Both the position numbers and the translations under genes were made by a program. Shown in pieces: positions 42,325 to 49,224 of a stretch of DNA of 64,000 nucleotides. The stretch spans positions 310,001 through 374,000 of the forward strand of contig NZ_LPUX01000053.1 in NCBI RefSeq assembly GCF_001651865.1, read 5' to 3'. Positions within the stretch are counted from its first letter, which is position 1; every line of letters begins with the position of its first letter. Under the pieces are notes generated by a model. That model was not told the DNA's origin. It saw nothing but the letters and a program-made list of their open reading frames with translations, and ran no database searches. This DNA comes from Sinorhizobium glycinis. GTDB lineage: Bacteria; Pseudomonadota; Alphaproteobacteria; Rhizobiales; Rhizobiaceae.

Positions 42325-43386
42325 ATGACACTCTACAACATTGCTCTTATCGGGTTTGGTGGCGTCAATCGCGCCTTGGCCGAACTCATTGCGACGAAGA
42401 ACCCGCTCTGGGAACGAGACCTCGGCTTCCGCCTGAACATTGTTGCTGTCAGCGACCTCTATCTCGGTTCCGTTATTTCGCCGAACGGGCTCGATGCCAA
42501 AACCCTCGTTGAAGCGAACTTCGCAAAAGGCGGGTTTGGACAGCTCTCTGGCGGCAGTGCGGAAGCCGACAACGAGACAATCATCAAGACGGCGCCTGCT
42601 GACATCATCGTGGAAGCGACATTTACAAACCCGAAGGACGGCGAGCCCGCTGTTTCGCACTGCCGCTGGGCCCTGCAGTCCGGCAAGCATGTCGTCACCA
42701 CGAACAAAGGGCCGGTCGCGATCGCTGCGCAGGAACTGAAGGCTCTTGCAAAGGCGAACGGCGTTCATTTCGAATATGAGGGCTCCGTCATGAGTGGCAC
42801 CCCTGTCATCCGGATGGCAGAAAAGACACTTGCCGGCGCAGAGGTGAAGGGCTTCGAGGGGATCTTGAACGGTACCTCGAACTTTGTCCTCGGCCGCATG
42901 GAAGGCGGCCTTGACTTCGCCACTGCGGTCAAGGAAGCCCAGATACTCGGCTATGCGGAAGCCGATCCGACCGCCGATGTCGAAGGTTTTGACGTTCGCC
43001 TCAAGGTGGTGATCCTGGCAAACGAGCTGCTGGGGGCAAGCCTCAAGCCCGAAGAGGTCACGTGCACGGGGATCTCCAAGCTTTCTCCATCCGATATCGA
43101 AAACGCAAAAGCAGCAAATAACCGTTGGAAGTTAATCGGATCGGCGGTTCGGAATGAAGACGGGACGGTAACAGGCAGCGTTTCTCCGAAGCAACTTCCC
43201 TTCGAGCATCCACTCGCTGGTGTAAACGGCGCGACCAATGCCGTATCGCTTAACACCGAACTACTCGGCTCTGTCACCATCACCGGACCTGGCGCCGGCC
43301 GGATTGAGACCGCTTATGCGCTGCTGTCCGATATCGTCGCCATCCACAAAGCCCAGACGGCCGCCGCTACCAAGGAGGCCGCATGA
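42325..43386 (+). CDS. homoserine dehydrogenase-family oxidoreductase (no ACT domain)
   Basis: 353 residues from an ATG preceded by CCGGAGG. An N-terminal NAD(P) fold ([17 protein letters not shown]) is followed by the substrate domain with [21 protein letters not shown] and the signature [19 protein letters not shown] that supplies the catalytic acids and lysine. The C-terminal regulatory ACT domain of biosynthetic Hom is missing. Family members interconvert homoserine and aspartate semialdehyde. Next to an aldehyde dehydrogenase, aspartase and a homoserine-kinase paralogue, a catabolic direction is likely. First gene of the operon. Confidence 0.9.
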
Positions 43387-44798
43387 TGCAGAGCCTCGCC
43401 CTCAAGGAGACGTCCGTAGACCAGATCATTATCTGCAACCCCTTCGACGGCAGCTTTGTCGGAGCGGTCTCTGAGACCAGTGCCGACAGTGTAAACCTGC
43501 TGCTTGAGCGCGCCAATCGGGGTGCGCAGATCGCACGGTCCCTGCCCCGTCATAGACGCTCCGCAATTCTCGAAAAGGCGGCAGCGACCGTCGAAGCCCG
43601 CAAGGAGGAATTTGCACTCCTTATCGTGCGGGAAGCAGGGAAGACAATCACCCAAGCCCGCAAAGAGGCTACGCGGTGTGTCAATACGTTGAAGCTCTCG
43701 GCGGACGAAGCCAAGCGGAATGCTGGCGAGGTGATCCCCTTCGATTCCTATGCCGGCTCGGAATCCCGTCAAGGCTGGTACACCCGCGAGCCGCTCGGCA
43801 TCATCACTGCAGTCACGCCTTACAATGACCCGCTCAATCTCGTGGCCCACAAACTCGGCCCCGCGATCGCCGGCGGCAATGCGGTACTCCTGAAGCCCTC
43901 GGAGCTTACGCCTCTGTCGGCCATCAAGCTGGTGGAAGTGCTGCTCGAAAGCGGGTTGCCGGAGGAAGTCATCACGGTAGCTGTCGGCGGGGCGGAGCTG
44001 GGCAAAGCGCTCGTTTCGGCCAAGGACGTTCGGATGATCTCCTTTACAGGCGGTTTTTCGACCGGCGAGGCCATCGCGAAGAGCGCCGGCATCAAGAAGC
44101 TAGCGATGGATCTCGGCGGAAATGCGCCGGTTATCGTCATGGAGAATAGCCATTTTGACGCGGCGGTTGAAGCGTGCGCGTCTGGAGCTTACTGGGCGGC
44201 GGGCCAGAACTGCATCGGCACGCAGCGAATTCTGGTCCAGCGACCGATCTACGAGCGGTTCAAAGCAGCGTTCGTCGCTCGGACTGCAAAGCTCAAGACC
44301 GGCAATCCGATGGAATCAGATACTGACGTAGGCCCGATGATTTCCGAAAAGGCGGTTAGCAGAGCTGCTGCCATGGTCGAGCGTGCAATCGCCGCTGGCG
44401 CAACGCTCCTTTGCGGGCACAAGCCCTCCCGCACTCTCTACCCCCCGACAGTGCTGGAGAACGCGCCGGCAACGTGCGACCTGTGGAATGAGGAGGTCTT
44501 TGCACCGATAGCCATCCTGCAGACGTTCGATGAACTGGAGGAGGCAATCCGGTTGGCAAACAGCCCGGAATACAGCCTCCACGCTGGTATCTTCACCAAC
44601 GATCTGGAGGAGGCTCTCGATGCCGCCAATCAAATCGACGCCGGGGGTGTCATGATCAATGACTCGTCCGACTATCGGTTCGACGCGATGCCCTTTGGCG
44701 GCTTCAAATACGGCAGCATGGGACGTGAGGGCGTTCGGTTTGCCTATGAAGACATGACCCAGCCGAAGGTCGTCTGCATCAATCGGCTGAAGTGGTAG
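43383..44798 (+). CDS. NAD(P)-dependent aldehyde dehydrogenase, probable aspartate-semialdehyde oxidase
   Basis: 471 residues, full ALDH fold. Catalytic Cys277 lies in GQNCIG and Asn148 in TPYND, but the general-base position usually held by Glu in ELGG is Asp243 (MDLGGN). The start overlaps the homoserine dehydrogenase stop (ATGATG), so the two are co-translated. This coupling suggests it takes the aspartate semialdehyde made by its partner to aspartate; this is inference. The sequence is nearer to lactaldehyde/phosphonoacetaldehyde-type ALDHs than to phosphorylating Asd. Confidence 0.88.
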
Positions 44799-44914: not shown

Positions 44915-46330
44915 ATGGGAACTGAACGCATAGAGACCGACTTGATCGGATCCCTTCCGATCCCGCGCGATGCTCTGTACGGCGTCCACACTCGTCGAGC
45001 CGAGCTCAACTTCAACGTTTCGGGCCTCCGGCTGAAAGACTTCCCCGAACTTGTTCAATCTATGGCTATGGTCAAGAAAGCCGCCGCGCTCGCGAATGCT
45101 GAGCTTGCCCTTCTGCCGGTGGAAAAAGCATCGGCGATCTCCGAGGCCTGTGATGATCTCATCGAGTTGAAGGGTGTCGATGAGAACTTCCCGATCGATA
45201 TGATGCAGGGTGGCGCTGGCACGTCCACGAATATGAACGTTAATGAGGTGGTAACCAACCTGGCGCTCTTGAAGCTCGGGGCCAATGTGGGCGACTACGC
45301 AAAGCTGCATCCCAATGATGATGTGAACCTTTCCCAGTCGACCAACGATGTCTATCCGACCGCGCTCCGTCTGACCATTCTTCGCGCTTGTGACGGACTG
45401 ATAGCATCCCAGGTCGGCTTGCGCGACGCATTCCGTGCTAAGGCGAGTGAGTATGCGACTGCCCTGAAGGTCGGCCGCACTCAGTTGCAGGATGCTGTTC
45501 CGATGACAGCAGGGCAGGAATTTGAAGCGTTTGCGGAGCTCATCGACGAAGATATCATCCAACTGCAGTCGGCGTCCGAGCTGTTGAAAGAGGTCAATCT
45601 CGGTGGATCTGCGATCGGCACCTCAATCAACGTCCCTCCCGGTTTTTCCGGCGCAGCTTGCGTGCACCTGACGCAGATTTCGCGGATCCACGTCATTCCG
45701 GCCCGAAACCTGATTGAAGCCACATCTGATGCAGGCGGGTTCGTTTCCTTCTCCAGTGTTCTGAAACGAATTGCAGTGAAGCTGACTAAGATCTGCAATG
45801 ATTTGCGTCTGTTGAGCAGTGGACCTCGCGGGGGCCTGGGTGAAATCCGACTGCCGCCTGTGCAGGTGGGATCCTCAATCATGCCCGGCAAAGTCAATCC
45901 CGTCATTCCAGAAATGATGAACCAGATCGGGTTCCAGGTTATCGGAAATGATCTCACGGTAACGCTCGCGGCCAGCGCGGGGCAGTTGCAACTGAATGCA
46001 ATGGAGCCAGTGATGGTTCTCAACATCCTTCAATCCATGCGGATGCTGACGCGGGGGATGGATATTTTTAAGCAGCGATGCATCGACGGAATTGAAGTCG
46101 ACGTCGACCGCTGCAAGGCCCTCCTAGACCAGTCTCTCGTGCTCGCAACGCCGTTGGCAATGCTTATCGGGTATAGCACGGCAGCGTATCTTTCCAGAAA
46201 GGCGCTGGCCGAAAAGCGGGAGTTGCGGCAGGTCGTCGAGGAGGAAGGAATTTTGGCGCGTGGCCAAATTGACGAGCTCTTTGAAGACAGCGCGGAGTTC
46301 GGAAATACGTCGCTGAGTTCGTCGGCCTGA
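44915..46330 (+). CDS. aspA: aspartate ammonia-lyase
   Basis: 471 residues of the fumarase/aspartase superfamily. The signature GSSIMPGKVNPVIPEMMNQI carries the catalytic serine loop, with GGAGTSTNMNVNEV and HPNDDVNLSQSTND upstream. The DALYGVHT and QIGFQVIGND blocks favour aspartase over fumarase. It would deaminate aspartate to fumarate and ammonia, closing a homoserine-to-TCA route with the two genes before it. A very strong AGGAGGAG site precedes the ATG. Confidence 0.9.
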   Translation: MGTERIETDLIGSLPIPRDALYGVHTRRAELNFNVSGLRLKDFPELVQSMAMVKKAAALANAELALLPVEKASAISEACDDLIELKGVDENFPIDMMQGGAGTSTNMNVNEVVTNLALLKLGANVGDYAKLHPNDDVNLSQSTNDVYPTALRLTILRACDGLIASQVGLRDAFRAKASEYATALKVGRTQLQDAVPMTAGQEFEAFAELIDEDIIQLQSASELLKEVNLGGSAIGTSINVPPGFSGAACVHLTQISRIHVIPARNLIEATSDAGGFVSFSSVLKRIAVKLTKICNDLRLLSSGPRGGLGEIRLPPVQVGSSIMPGKVNPVIPEMMNQIGFQVIGNDLTVTLAASAGQLQLNAMEPVMVLNILQSMRMLTRGMDIFKQRCIDGIEVDVDRCKALLDQSLVLATPLAMLIGYSTAAYLSRKALAEKRELRQVVEEEGILARGQIDELFEDSAEFGNTSLSSSA

Positions 46331-46343
46331 TAGGGTAGGAAAA

Positions 46344-47129
46344 ATGGCTGTTTTTACCGAGCTTTCTGATGAAGATCGCCAATCGATCACTGCAGCCTAT
46401 GGGTTGAAGTCGCTTTTGTCAGTGATTGGGATCGCGGACGGCGACAGCGAGACGACCTACCTGTTTCGCGCCCAGGAAGGCGAATTCATCGTTACGCTCT
46501 TCGAGAACGGAGCCCAGCCTTCAGATCTCGAAAGAGCCTTCGAGACCATGGAGGCGCTCCATCGAAAGGGCGTCCCCTGCCCCAAACCGCTGCGCACTGT
46601 CGAAGGCCACGCCACTTGCAGGGCCGCAGGTCGATTGGTTGCCGTCGTCAGCTTCGTACCGGGCTCCTCATCCACCATTGCAGGCGCGGCAAAATGCCGA
46701 AGCCTGGGTCGTGTGATGGCTCAAATCCATACTGTCTCGGAACGGAAGGAAAAGCGCGCATCAACGGATCTTCCAGCTGGGGCTGTTCACGGCGCGTTGG
46801 TCCAAGAGAATGTCTTTTTCCTTGGAGAGGAAGTAAGCGGGGTCATTAACTTCAGGCTGCGGCACGATGATGCGCTGTTGTCGGAGGTTGCGGATGTGCT
46901 TGTCGGTTGGGCGGGGGAAACCAACGGAGAACTGAACAAAGAACGGGCGCGCGCGCTACTGCAGGGTTATGAAGAGGTTCGAAACCTGACCGCCGCGGAA
47001 AAGGAGGCATTGCCAGGTTTCATAATGGCTTCGACATCGAAGCGATTTGCGAGCCAGAAGGAAAGAGCCTTCCTACCGGAAATCGCCGTGGTAGCTTATC
47101 GATCGGTAACGCCCGACATTTTAGGTTAA
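46344..47129 (+). CDS. homoserine kinase (ThrB/APH-fold) paralogue, predicted catalytically dead
   Basis: 261 residues against about 320 for rhizobial ThrB. The N-terminus (MAVFTELSDEDRQSI, LLSVIGIADG, EFIVTLFENG) and C-terminal half (LLQGYEEVRNLTAAEKEALP) follow ThrB closely. The catalytic loop HADLFPDNVFF of ThrB is here HGALVQENVFF, so the catalytic aspartate is Ala151. The metal-binding aspartate of IDF is Asn169 (INF). About 40 residues before the loop and the last 30 or so are missing. The frame is open, has its own AGGAAA site and sits 13 bp after aspA. A ligand-binding or regulatory role is inferred. Confidence 0.85.
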   Translation: MAVFTELSDEDRQSITAAYGLKSLLSVIGIADGDSETTYLFRAQEGEFIVTLFENGAQPSDLERAFETMEALHRKGVPCPKPLRTVEGHATCRAAGRLVAVVSFVPGSSSTIAGAAKCRSLGRVMAQIHTVSERKEKRASTDLPAGAVHGALVQENVFFLGEEVSGVINFRLRHDDALLSEVADVLVGWAGETNGELNKERARALLQGYEEVRNLTAAEKEALPGFIMASTSKRFASQKERAFLPEIAVVAYRSVTPDILG

Positions 47130-47147: not shown

Positions 47148-47591
47148 ATGAAATACCTTCTCGATCGAACTGACGAACAGATACTTGCCGAATTGAAGGC
47201 AAACGCCCGGATCTCGCACGCGGAGTTGTCGGCGAAGGTGAATCTCTCGCGTAACGCCGTGCGAGTGCGGATCGAACGACTTGAGCGCGAAGGCTTCATC
47301 AAGGGATATACGATCGTCACCGGCGAGGGAGGGAGTAGCCAACACGTCACGACCGCACTGATCTTCGTGTATCGGCACGATCGCATGAGGGGTGGCGACG
47401 TTATTCAGGCGCTGCGGAAAATCCCGGAAGTCGTGGCTTGCGACGTTATGACTGGTGACTTCGATCTCCTCGTCAGGGTCGAGTCTCCCGAGGCCGACCG
47501 CATCCGGCAAATTTGGCAGTTGATAGCCGAGATGCCCGGGGTGCGCGATACGCTGACTGCCTTTGCTCTCTCCTCGGTGATCCGAAAGTAG
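47148..47591 (+). CDS. Lrp/AsnC-family transcriptional regulator
   Basis: 147 residues. An N-terminal helix-turn-helix (LDRTDEQILAELKANARISH, LSAKVNLSRNAVRVRIERLE) is joined to a RAM effector-binding domain (VVACDVMTGDFDLLVRVES). Lrp-type proteins sense amino acids and often control adjacent amino-acid catabolic genes. Being 18 bp after the kinase-like gene it is the last member of the homoserine operon and the likely local regulator, with homoserine or aspartate as candidate effector. Confidence 0.9.
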   Translation: MKYLLDRTDEQILAELKANARISHAELSAKVNLSRNAVRVRIERLEREGFIKGYTIVTGEGGSSQHVTTALIFVYRHDRMRGGDVIQALRKIPEVVACDVMTGDFDLLVRVESPEADRIRQIWQLIAEMPGVRDTLTAFALSSVIRK

Positions 47592-47796
47592 ACGCCGCAA
47601 AGCAGATGCACATCTTGCCCCAACAGAAGACACGTTTACATCAGCTATCGTTCGACATCGAGCGCGTAGATGCGTTTGTTAACGCCCTTCTTAAGCGAAC
47701 ATTCAGGCGACATAAATTGCCGTCTTCAGGTGAAATGGGGCATGCTTCTGACGTAGGCCCGCCCCGGCCGCATTGCACTGTCGAAAGGTTCAAACC

Positions 47797-49224
47797 ATGA
47801 TAACCGAACGAGGAACCCAGTTCTATATTGGCGGGGAGTGGCAAGAACACGCGGACGCACCAAGTCTGCCCGTCGTTGATCCCGCCTCGGAACGGATTAT
47901 TGGGCGTATCGCCGCCGGAGACGCAAACCACGTCGATCTTGCAGTTGCGGCAGCGCGCAAGGCCTTCCCTGCCTTCTCTCAATCATCTGTGTCCGAGAGG
48001 CTCGAGCTGCTCGGCAGGGTGCATGCGCTACTGAAGGAGAGAGCGGAATTATTCGCGGAGACTCTCGTCATGGAGATGGGCGCAGCGATCAGCTTCGCGC
48101 GTGCCTCGCAGGTTTTCTTCGCTGCCGAGCACGTTCGCATCCAGATGGAGGTGCTTCAGAACTACCCGTTCCTGACGATAAATGGGCACACCGCAACGGC
48201 CAAGGAACCGATCGGCGTTTGTGCTTTGATCACCCCGTGGAACTGGCCACTCTACCAGATCACCGCCAAGCTTGCCCCAGCGATCGCGGGCGGTTGCACC
48301 GTCGTTCTCAAACCCAGTGAGCTGTCCCCCTACAGCGCCTTGCTCTTCGCCCAACTGATGCACGACGCCGGTACTCCGCCAGGAGTGTTCAACCTGGTCA
48401 ATGGCACCGGAGAGAGTGTTGGTGCAGCTCTCTCAAGCCATCCCGATGTCGACATGATCTCAATCACCGGCTCGACGCGCGCGGGGGTACTCGTCGCGCA
48501 GGCGGCGGCCCCGACGGTCAAGCGAGTGGTCCAGGAACTTGGCGGCAAGTCCCCCAATATTCTGCTCGATGATGCTGATTTCGCCGAGGCGGTGCCAAAG
48601 GGCGTCCTTGCCGGCATGCGCAATGTCGGCCAGTCATGCAGCGCCCCGACGCGCATGCTCGTACCCGCCCATCGGCTCGCCGAGGTCGAGCGTCTGGCCA
48701 GCAAAACCGCGCTTGCCATCCGTGTCGGCGATCCGAAGGATCCGGCGACCACCATGGGGCCCATCGCCAATCGCGCTCAGTATGAGCGGGTGCAGGCCAT
48801 GATCCGGGTGGGAATCGACGAAGGCGCGAAGCTCCTGTGCGGCGGACTGGGACGCCCAGCAGGTCTCGATCGAGGCTTCTTCACGCAGCCGACGATTTTT
48901 TCCGAGGTTCGGCCAGAGATGCGCGTCGCTCGCGAGGAAATCTTCGGGCCGGTCCTGGCGATCATGCCGTACCGGGACGAAGAAGAGGCAATCGCGATCG
49001 CCAATGACACGGTTTACGGACTGGGAGCCCACGTCCAGTCCTCGGATCCCGAGCGGGCACGGCGGGTCGCCTCCCGGATCCGCGCCGGGCAGGTTCATAT
49101 CAACTATCCGGCATGGGACGGGGCGGCCACGTTTGGTGGCTACAAACGGTCAGGCAATGGTCGCGAATATGGCGTTCACGGGCTCGAGGAGTATCTCGAG
49201 ACGAAGGCCATCCTCGGTTACTGA
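47797..49224 (+). CDS. aldehyde dehydrogenase
   Basis: 475 residues, canonical ALDH: Asn149 in TPWNWP, Glu247 in ELGG and Cys281 in GQSCSAP are all present. Similar to betaine-aldehyde and gamma-aminobutyraldehyde-type enzymes; the substrate is not determined. A 205-bp gap after the Lrp gene suggests its own promoter. The last 7 bases overlap the end of the convergent LysR gene. Confidence 0.88.
   Translation: MITERGTQFYIGGEWQEHADAPSLPVVDPASERIIGRIAAGDANHVDLAVAAARKAFPAFSQSSVSERLELLGRVHALLKERAELFAETLVMEMGAAISFARASQVFFAAEHVRIQMEVLQNYPFLTINGHTATAKEPIGVCALITPWNWPLYQITAKLAPAIAGGCTVVLKPSELSPYSALLFAQLMHDAGTPPGVFNLVNGTGESVGAALSSHPDVDMISITGSTRAGVLVAQAAAPTVKRVVQELGGKSPNILLDDADFAEAVPKGVLAGMRNVGQSCSAPTRMLVPAHRLAEVERLASKTALAIRVGDPKDPATTMGPIANRAQYERVQAMIRVGIDEGAKLLCGGLGRPAGLDRGFFTQPTIFSEVRPEMRVAREEIFGPVLAIMPYRDEEEAIAIANDTVYGLGAHVQSSDPERARRVASRIRAGQVHINYPAWDGAATFGGYKRSGNGREYGVHGLEEYLETKAILGY

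Follow-up and report, generated by a model that had tools for sequence, protein, structure and literature searches.

The window, a 64,000-nucleotide stretch of Sinorhizobium glycinis DNA, carries a shortened relative of homoserine kinase (ThrB) that has lost the residues of phosphotransfer and lies in an operon for the breakdown of homoserine. The question raised by this locus is whether the gene, designated PSK, is decaying or has been retained for another function and, if so, which one. The first-pass annotation had proposed that this pseudoenzyme derives from ThrB and is kept in an apparent homoserine catabolic operon because it has taken on another role, a proposal that the motifs, the dN/dS values and the operon linkage described here support.

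The gene, its operon and its family

PSK is an open reading frame with an ATG start, directly preceded by AGGGTAGGA, its own ribosome-binding site. The start is 13 nt downstream of the end of aspA and the end is 18 nt upstream of the start of an Lrp/AsnC gene, confirming the open frame, separate ribosome site and tight spacing first described. The gene order in the window is hom-ald-aspA-PSK-lrp, and the features are as follows.

42325..43386, + strand: hom, catabolic-type homoserine dehydrogenase, 353 aa, no ACT domain (NF004912, 483.9 bits, cut-off 373)
43383..44798, + strand: ald, aldehyde dehydrogenase, presumed to oxidise aspartate semialdehyde
44915..46330, + strand: aspA-like aspartate ammonia-lyase (NF008909, above cut-off)
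46344..47129, + strand: PSK, putative pseudokinase of the ThrB/HSK2 family, 261 aa (open frame, profile matches, alignment with relatives)
46443..46457, + strand: PSK codons 34-38, re-cast glycine-rich loop D-S-E-T-T, with E36 and T38 versus N36 and N38 in canonical ThrB
46788..46811, + strand: PSK codons 149-156, catalytic loop H-G-A-L-V-Q-E-N, with the catalytic Asp replaced by A151
46845..46865, + strand: PSK codons 168-174, metal-site loop I-N-F-R-L-R-H, with the metal Asp replaced by N169 and with R171 and R173 new and fixed
47148..47591, + strand: lrp, Lrp/AsnC family regulator

The presence of a catabolic homoserine dehydrogenase and an aldehyde dehydrogenase in one gene cluster identifies a homoserine catabolic operon. 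In the window (47773-49224) and in the S. fredii relatives, lrp is followed by a second aldehyde dehydrogenase gene in the same orientation; in the Rhizobium relatives this gene is inverted and lies at a distance of kilobases.

Homoserine clusters of this kind are already known. In R. leguminosarum the use of homoserine is reported to depend on the cluster (Vanderlinde et al. 2014, as cited in PMC10228743), a plasmid-borne homoserine cluster reportedly influences how well strains compete for the nodulation of pea (Vanderlinde et al. 2014), and the pRL8 hom gene, pRL80071 of R. leguminosarum 3841, is induced in the pea rhizosphere (PMC3333776). The pRL8 cluster (L004) has a similar arrangement, hom-ald-(aspA remnant)-PSK-lrp, while the window differs in having an intact aspA and the second aldehyde dehydrogenase downstream. 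The pRL8 PSK is annotated as 'homoserine kinase' (RL_RS25490).

The product belongs to the phosphotransferase/APH superfamily (PF01636, 65 bits against a gathering cut-off of 23.2). Its scores with the homoserine kinase models NF003558 (171.5 bits) and TIGR00938 (150.3 bits) were well under the equivalog cut-offs of 271 and 255.9, respectively, indicating a homoserine kinase relative rather than an equivalog of that family. The best PDB match was A. tumefaciens homoserine kinase (2ppq), with a sequence profile E value of 2e-46, and the same structure ranked first in Foldseek and VIA. These matches bear out the derivation from ThrB that had been claimed for the gene. The genome also encodes a normal ThrB of 326 aa (G000:C53:553575-554492, 403.5 bits). 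Compared with this enzyme PSK is approximately 65 aa shorter: the stretch that separates H129 from the catalytic loop has lost about 41 residues and the C-terminus about 24, in agreement with the initial estimate of 60-70.

The AlphaFold model of PSK had the two-lobed kinase fold, with a mean pLDDT of 89.9 and a pTM of 0.88. The model was matched by 2ppq with Z 25.0 and an rmsd of 2.7 over 246 residues at 33% identity, and by other APH-fold kinases with Z 14-21. The input consisted of 38 sequences, 20 PSK and 18 ThrB; a control model made from the 20 PSK sequences only gave the same order of helices and strands (pLDDT 85.6, pTM 0.83), so the predicted kinase fold is kept rather than imposed by the ThrB sequences. 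Like ThrB/HSK2 (2ppq), PSK has the N-terminal MAVxT, G29xxxG33, H129, H149, N156, W189 and Y209. Unlike ThrB/HSK2, it has replacements of the catalytic Asp, the metal Asp and the nucleotide-loop Asn, lacks the 65 or so residues and forms a separate clade. The modelled kinase fold, together with the loss of phosphotransfer residues conserved across the orthologues, would make PSK a pseudokinase.

The altered cleft and its conservation

The PSK family comprises at least 34 distinct intact members, the window copy and at least 33 others, mostly from Rhizobiaceae. They came from tblastn searches of plasmids, from 84,980 scanned species genomes and from whole-genome searches, with one duplicate removed. 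The hosts are Rhizobium, Sinorhizobium/Ensifer, Agrobacterium, Mesorhizobium, Shinella and Microvirga, and one genome (G684) from another family of the same order. Identity to the window copy ranged from 90% to 43% among the aligned members and was as high as 92% in plasmid hits left out of the alignment. Among the matches listed in the species scan, the next after PSK were canonical ThrBs at 25-30%, mostly from gamma- and betaproteobacteria, and this drop leaves a clean gap between PSK and ThrB. When the distant PSK of G684 was used as the query against 384 genomes sampled from the class, only the window's own PSK reached 1e-30. In the phylogenetic tree, a branch with 100/100 support separated PSK from the 28 ThrBs included; the two longest rows, L008 and L138, paired with each other and their placement is unsure. 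The tree was rooted by midpoint, which makes a single origin likely rather than proven; PSK probably diverged once from a homoserine kinase.

Alignment with the genome's own ThrB confirmed that the catalytic Asp (D193) corresponds to A151 and the metal Asp (D211) to N169, as first assigned. The catalytic position was Ala in all 34 PSK sequences and Asp in all 85 ThrBs, a set chosen by a pattern that requires this Asp, and the metal position was Asn in 34/34 and fixed as Asp in the ThrBs. An intact HxD or DF motif was found in none of the 34 homologues, so the two replacements proved to be conserved among the shortened relatives. In the combined alignment of 34 PSK and 85 ThrB sequences, seven sites were at least 97% fixed within each group as different residues: N36E, N38T, D193A, D211N, Y213R, A215R and D223E. 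All but D223E are in the glycine-rich/nucleotide, catalytic or metal loops. With the cleft delimited by motif, a division made in this analysis, 6 of the 15 canonical invariants that belong to cleft loops had switched versus 1 of 26 elsewhere (Fisher p=0.006), a concentration which argues that the cleft was rebuilt, not eroded.

The codons at these positions have continued to change. Four codons were used for A151, five for R171, two for N169 and five for R173 (the latter in 33/34 members). Since the codons vary while A151 and R171 are fixed, the "dead" residues are actively kept, and such uniform, codon-independent fixation after the loss points to selection for the new state, not drift. The dN/dS of PSK was 0.07-0.27 (Nei-Gojobori, 16 pairs with measurable dS), compared with 0.015-0.18 for its operon neighbours, and the mean amino acid distance was 0.46 versus 0.19-0.24, approximately twofold faster. 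PSK is thus constrained, but less so than the neighbouring genes. One member, the PSK of NGR234 (L148:7001-7732), has a 17-aa in-frame deletion in the C-lobe directly after INFRLRH.

Linkage to the operon and loss

The cluster of every PSK member had hom and/or ald. The fetched flanks of L006 and L007 were too short to include hom, which was on the same plasmid, and at L034 ald was at the border of the retrieved sequence. PSK belongs to the accessory genes: among 395 sampled genomes of the family, hom was present in 15 and PSK in 14, with an overlap of 14 (Fisher p=7e-25), and G071 had two copies of each. Every sampled genome with PSK had ald as well. Operon linkage alone would, however, yield much of this co-occurrence, which weakens it as support for a partnership.

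The genes next to PSK are not all equally constant. Lrp was directly 3' of PSK in 33/34 loci, with a spacing of -17 to +22 nt where measured and a 4-nt overlap in 12/31; at L008, PSK was at the upstream end of the operon and Lrp at the downstream end. dapA was present in most PSK loci and absent from the window and L012. At six loci (L004, L023, L030, L031, L032 and L138), PSK was open and aspA was a remnant or absent, and PSK as an obligate partner of aspA was rejected on these grounds. Linkage of PSK to hom/ald was complete in the loci examined, and linkage to aspA was not strict. On pRL8 of the model strain 3841 (L004:8115-8981), only residues 178-468 of the aspA remnant could be aligned, and hom, ald, PSK and lrp were open. 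Partial correlations of distance matrices with PSK were 0.09 for hom, 0.26 for ald and 0.28 for lrp, too weak for the choice of a partner by co-evolution, and this approach was dropped.

PSK was broken or missing in a minority of lineages. G288, the sole hom-only genome of the sample, had a 28-codon PSK remnant, MAVFTEISDEDRNSVAAETAQQAECRPA-stop, in which the N- and C-terminal ends were fused by deletion, and in WSM2304 PSK had been lost together with part of aspA. In both, hom, ald and lrp were intact, indicating that the enzymes can do without PSK. In the R. etli group (IE4771, Kim5), hom and ald were absent from the region, PSK was in pieces and Lrp was intact; the check for hom elsewhere in these two strains covered plasmid records. 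The pTi plasmid of A. larrymoorei had an ald remnant, a divergent but open hom, a frameshifted PSK and an open Lrp, and one further broken PSK was an IS-hit copy. These cases indicate that PSK is dispensable in some lineages. No PSK was found in the hom-ald clusters of Paraburkholderia and Streptomyces plasmids, so that PSK looks like an addition within Hyphomicrobiales.

Many PSK operons have, upstream of hom, a PLP enzyme of the Cys/Met type together with an SMR transporter, as at L005 (303-1938) and similarly at L010, L011, L024, L025 and L027-L029; the window has neither. By its protein family the PLP enzyme is plausibly a canavanine gamma-lyase that would feed homoserine into the pathway. 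The arrangement recalls the operon by which Rhizobiales degrade canavanine (Hauth et al. 2022, as cited in PMC10018355), with the likeness to the cited operon lying in protein family only, and the window differs from that operon in lacking both genes.

Candidate functions of the pseudokinase

The retained fold, the lost phosphotransfer residues, the new cleft residues and the absence of any intact PSK apart from the hom/ald module are best explained by a pseudokinase that acts through binding. On this sequence evidence PSK has very probably acquired a new, non-enzymatic function in the homoserine pathway and is not simply decaying. It is tentatively viewed as a non-catalytic pseudokinase that purifying selection has preserved as an accessory protein dedicated to the homoserine-oxidation module of rhizobia. 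PSK would bind the homoserine dehydrogenase and/or the aldehyde dehydrogenase as a subunit for regulation or assembly, with no catalysis of its own, and would balance the oxidation of homoserine against the cellular pools of homoserine and aspartate semialdehyde. The rebuilt cleft may hold an effector or a salt bridge between loops, with E36-R171/R173 proposed, in place of MgATP. A more specific and distinctly speculative version is that a metabolic kinase came to serve solely as an allosteric subunit for the dehydrogenase that consumes the kinase's former substrate, homoserine, along a different route, such that the inactive descendant of a kinase of threonine synthesis controls homoserine oxidation and its arginine-rich cleft senses a pathway ligand without metal.

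The dependence of PSK on hom and ald and its decay where hom/ald have been lost while Lrp remains favour the enzymes as partner, whereas the constant adjacency and overlap favour Lrp. With modest confidence, the hom/ald enzymes were ranked first and Lrp was considered the main rival. Modulation of the housekeeping ThrB, one of the roles first suggested, found no support, as the distribution of PSK tracks the catabolic homoserine dehydrogenase and not ThrB. PDB entry 9a5i, 'MTNK-DHOM by crosslinking MS', appeared in the VIA list of the PSK model. It is an integrative model of MtnK, which has the same fold, with homoserine dehydrogenase, and suggests by analogy that another APH-fold kinase can touch this dehydrogenase; the main text of the likely source papers does not mention it, and it was not counted as evidence for a PSK-Hom contact.

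It is possible, though less likely, that PSK is a co-regulator of the adjacent Lrp/AsnC protein, binding Lrp or holding its effector so that transcription of the operon would depend on homoserine or a pathway intermediate. The adjacency persists where aspA or dapA has been lost (L004, L023, L031, L032 and L138), the 4-nt overlaps suggest translational coupling, and the partial distance correlation, though low, was highest with Lrp. However, 1) Lrp has stayed intact in the lineages with a broken or lost PSK (R. etli group, A. larrymoorei, WSM2304 and G288), 2) related Lrps occur near hom without PSK in Paraburkholderia and Streptomyces, 3) PSK is at the opposite end of the operon on pAt2788b of A. 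fabrum and 4) the adjacency may be mere inherited gene order.

The first-pass annotation had also suggested that PSK senses or buffers homoserine, which it would do by binding the free compound or, alternatively, homoserine phosphate. The descent from homoserine kinase, the place in a homoserine operon and the retention of several canonical fold and cleft residues (G29, G33, H149, N156, W189, Y209 and R213) are consistent with this role, which is nevertheless unlikely. Canonical N141 and W148 are missing with the deleted segment of about 41 residues, F195, N229, R280 and D283 are free to vary, and the two structural segments lost affect C-lobe regions that, to judge from PMC2860764, carry substrate sites in the choline-aminoglycoside kinase fold. 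An unchanged homoserine site is therefore doubtful, while homoserine as a ligand is still possible.

Pseudokinases of the SelO and SidJ types have enzymatic activity. A residual or new activity of this kind would also be expected to show a rebuilt, strictly conserved cleft, and H149 and N156 remain in PSK. This explanation is quite improbable, as no member retains the catalytic Asp, the metal Asp or either nucleotide-loop Asn, with no obvious new constellation of Asp, His or Cys except E36, H174 and E181. The last of these replaces D223, which by its spacing from the metal Asp appears to match the structural C-lobe Asp of YtaA (PMC2860764).

Least probable of all, and strongly disfavoured, is a decaying or hitch-hiking gene without function: the broken copies in several lineages and the faster evolution of PSK fit this idea, but simple decay was rejected because dN/dS is far below 1, codons vary at fixed residues at exactly the lost sites, 34 frames are open across a divergence as deep as 43% identity, and PSK has outlived aspA on pRL8 and elsewhere. 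Of the two signs of decay that had been named beforehand, dN/dS near 1 did not appear, and frameshifted, deleted or truncated copies did in that minority of lineages.

Pseudokinases near HSK2 are already known from spore coats, YutH and others of the CotS/YtaA family (PMC2860764). Like PSK, these bacterial kinase-fold proteins, whose group is the nearest to HSK2, have lost the catalytic Asp and kept the fold, and were assigned a non-enzymatic function from their conservation. Unlike PSK, they are a different family, mostly of Gram-positive spore coats and outside metabolic operons, and they have been inactivated by a variety of changes, in contrast to the single uniform set of PSK. In a search of openly accessible papers for homoserine kinase and pseudokinase, PMC2860764 was the only relevant report and none treated the PSK gene as a pseudokinase; a conserved ThrB pseudokinase in homoserine catabolism thus appears to be undescribed in that literature. 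A conserved bacterial pseudokinase that descends from a small-molecule kinase is seldom recognised, and since databases label PSK 'homoserine kinase' or 'phosphotransferase', metabolic models of rhizobia are misled. If the preferred reading, an accessory of homoserine oxidation, is right, PSK would clearly exemplify the conversion of an enzyme into a regulator in the pathway of its own metabolite, in a plasmid-borne cluster.

On Agrobacterium plasmids the PSK operon adjoins traR (L008:13819-14699, with traM; L009:9504-10208). Homoserine is reported to induce pRL8 transfer (PMC7449395, citing Vanderlinde 2014), and together these observations suggest that the homoserine cluster may be tied to the control of conjugation.
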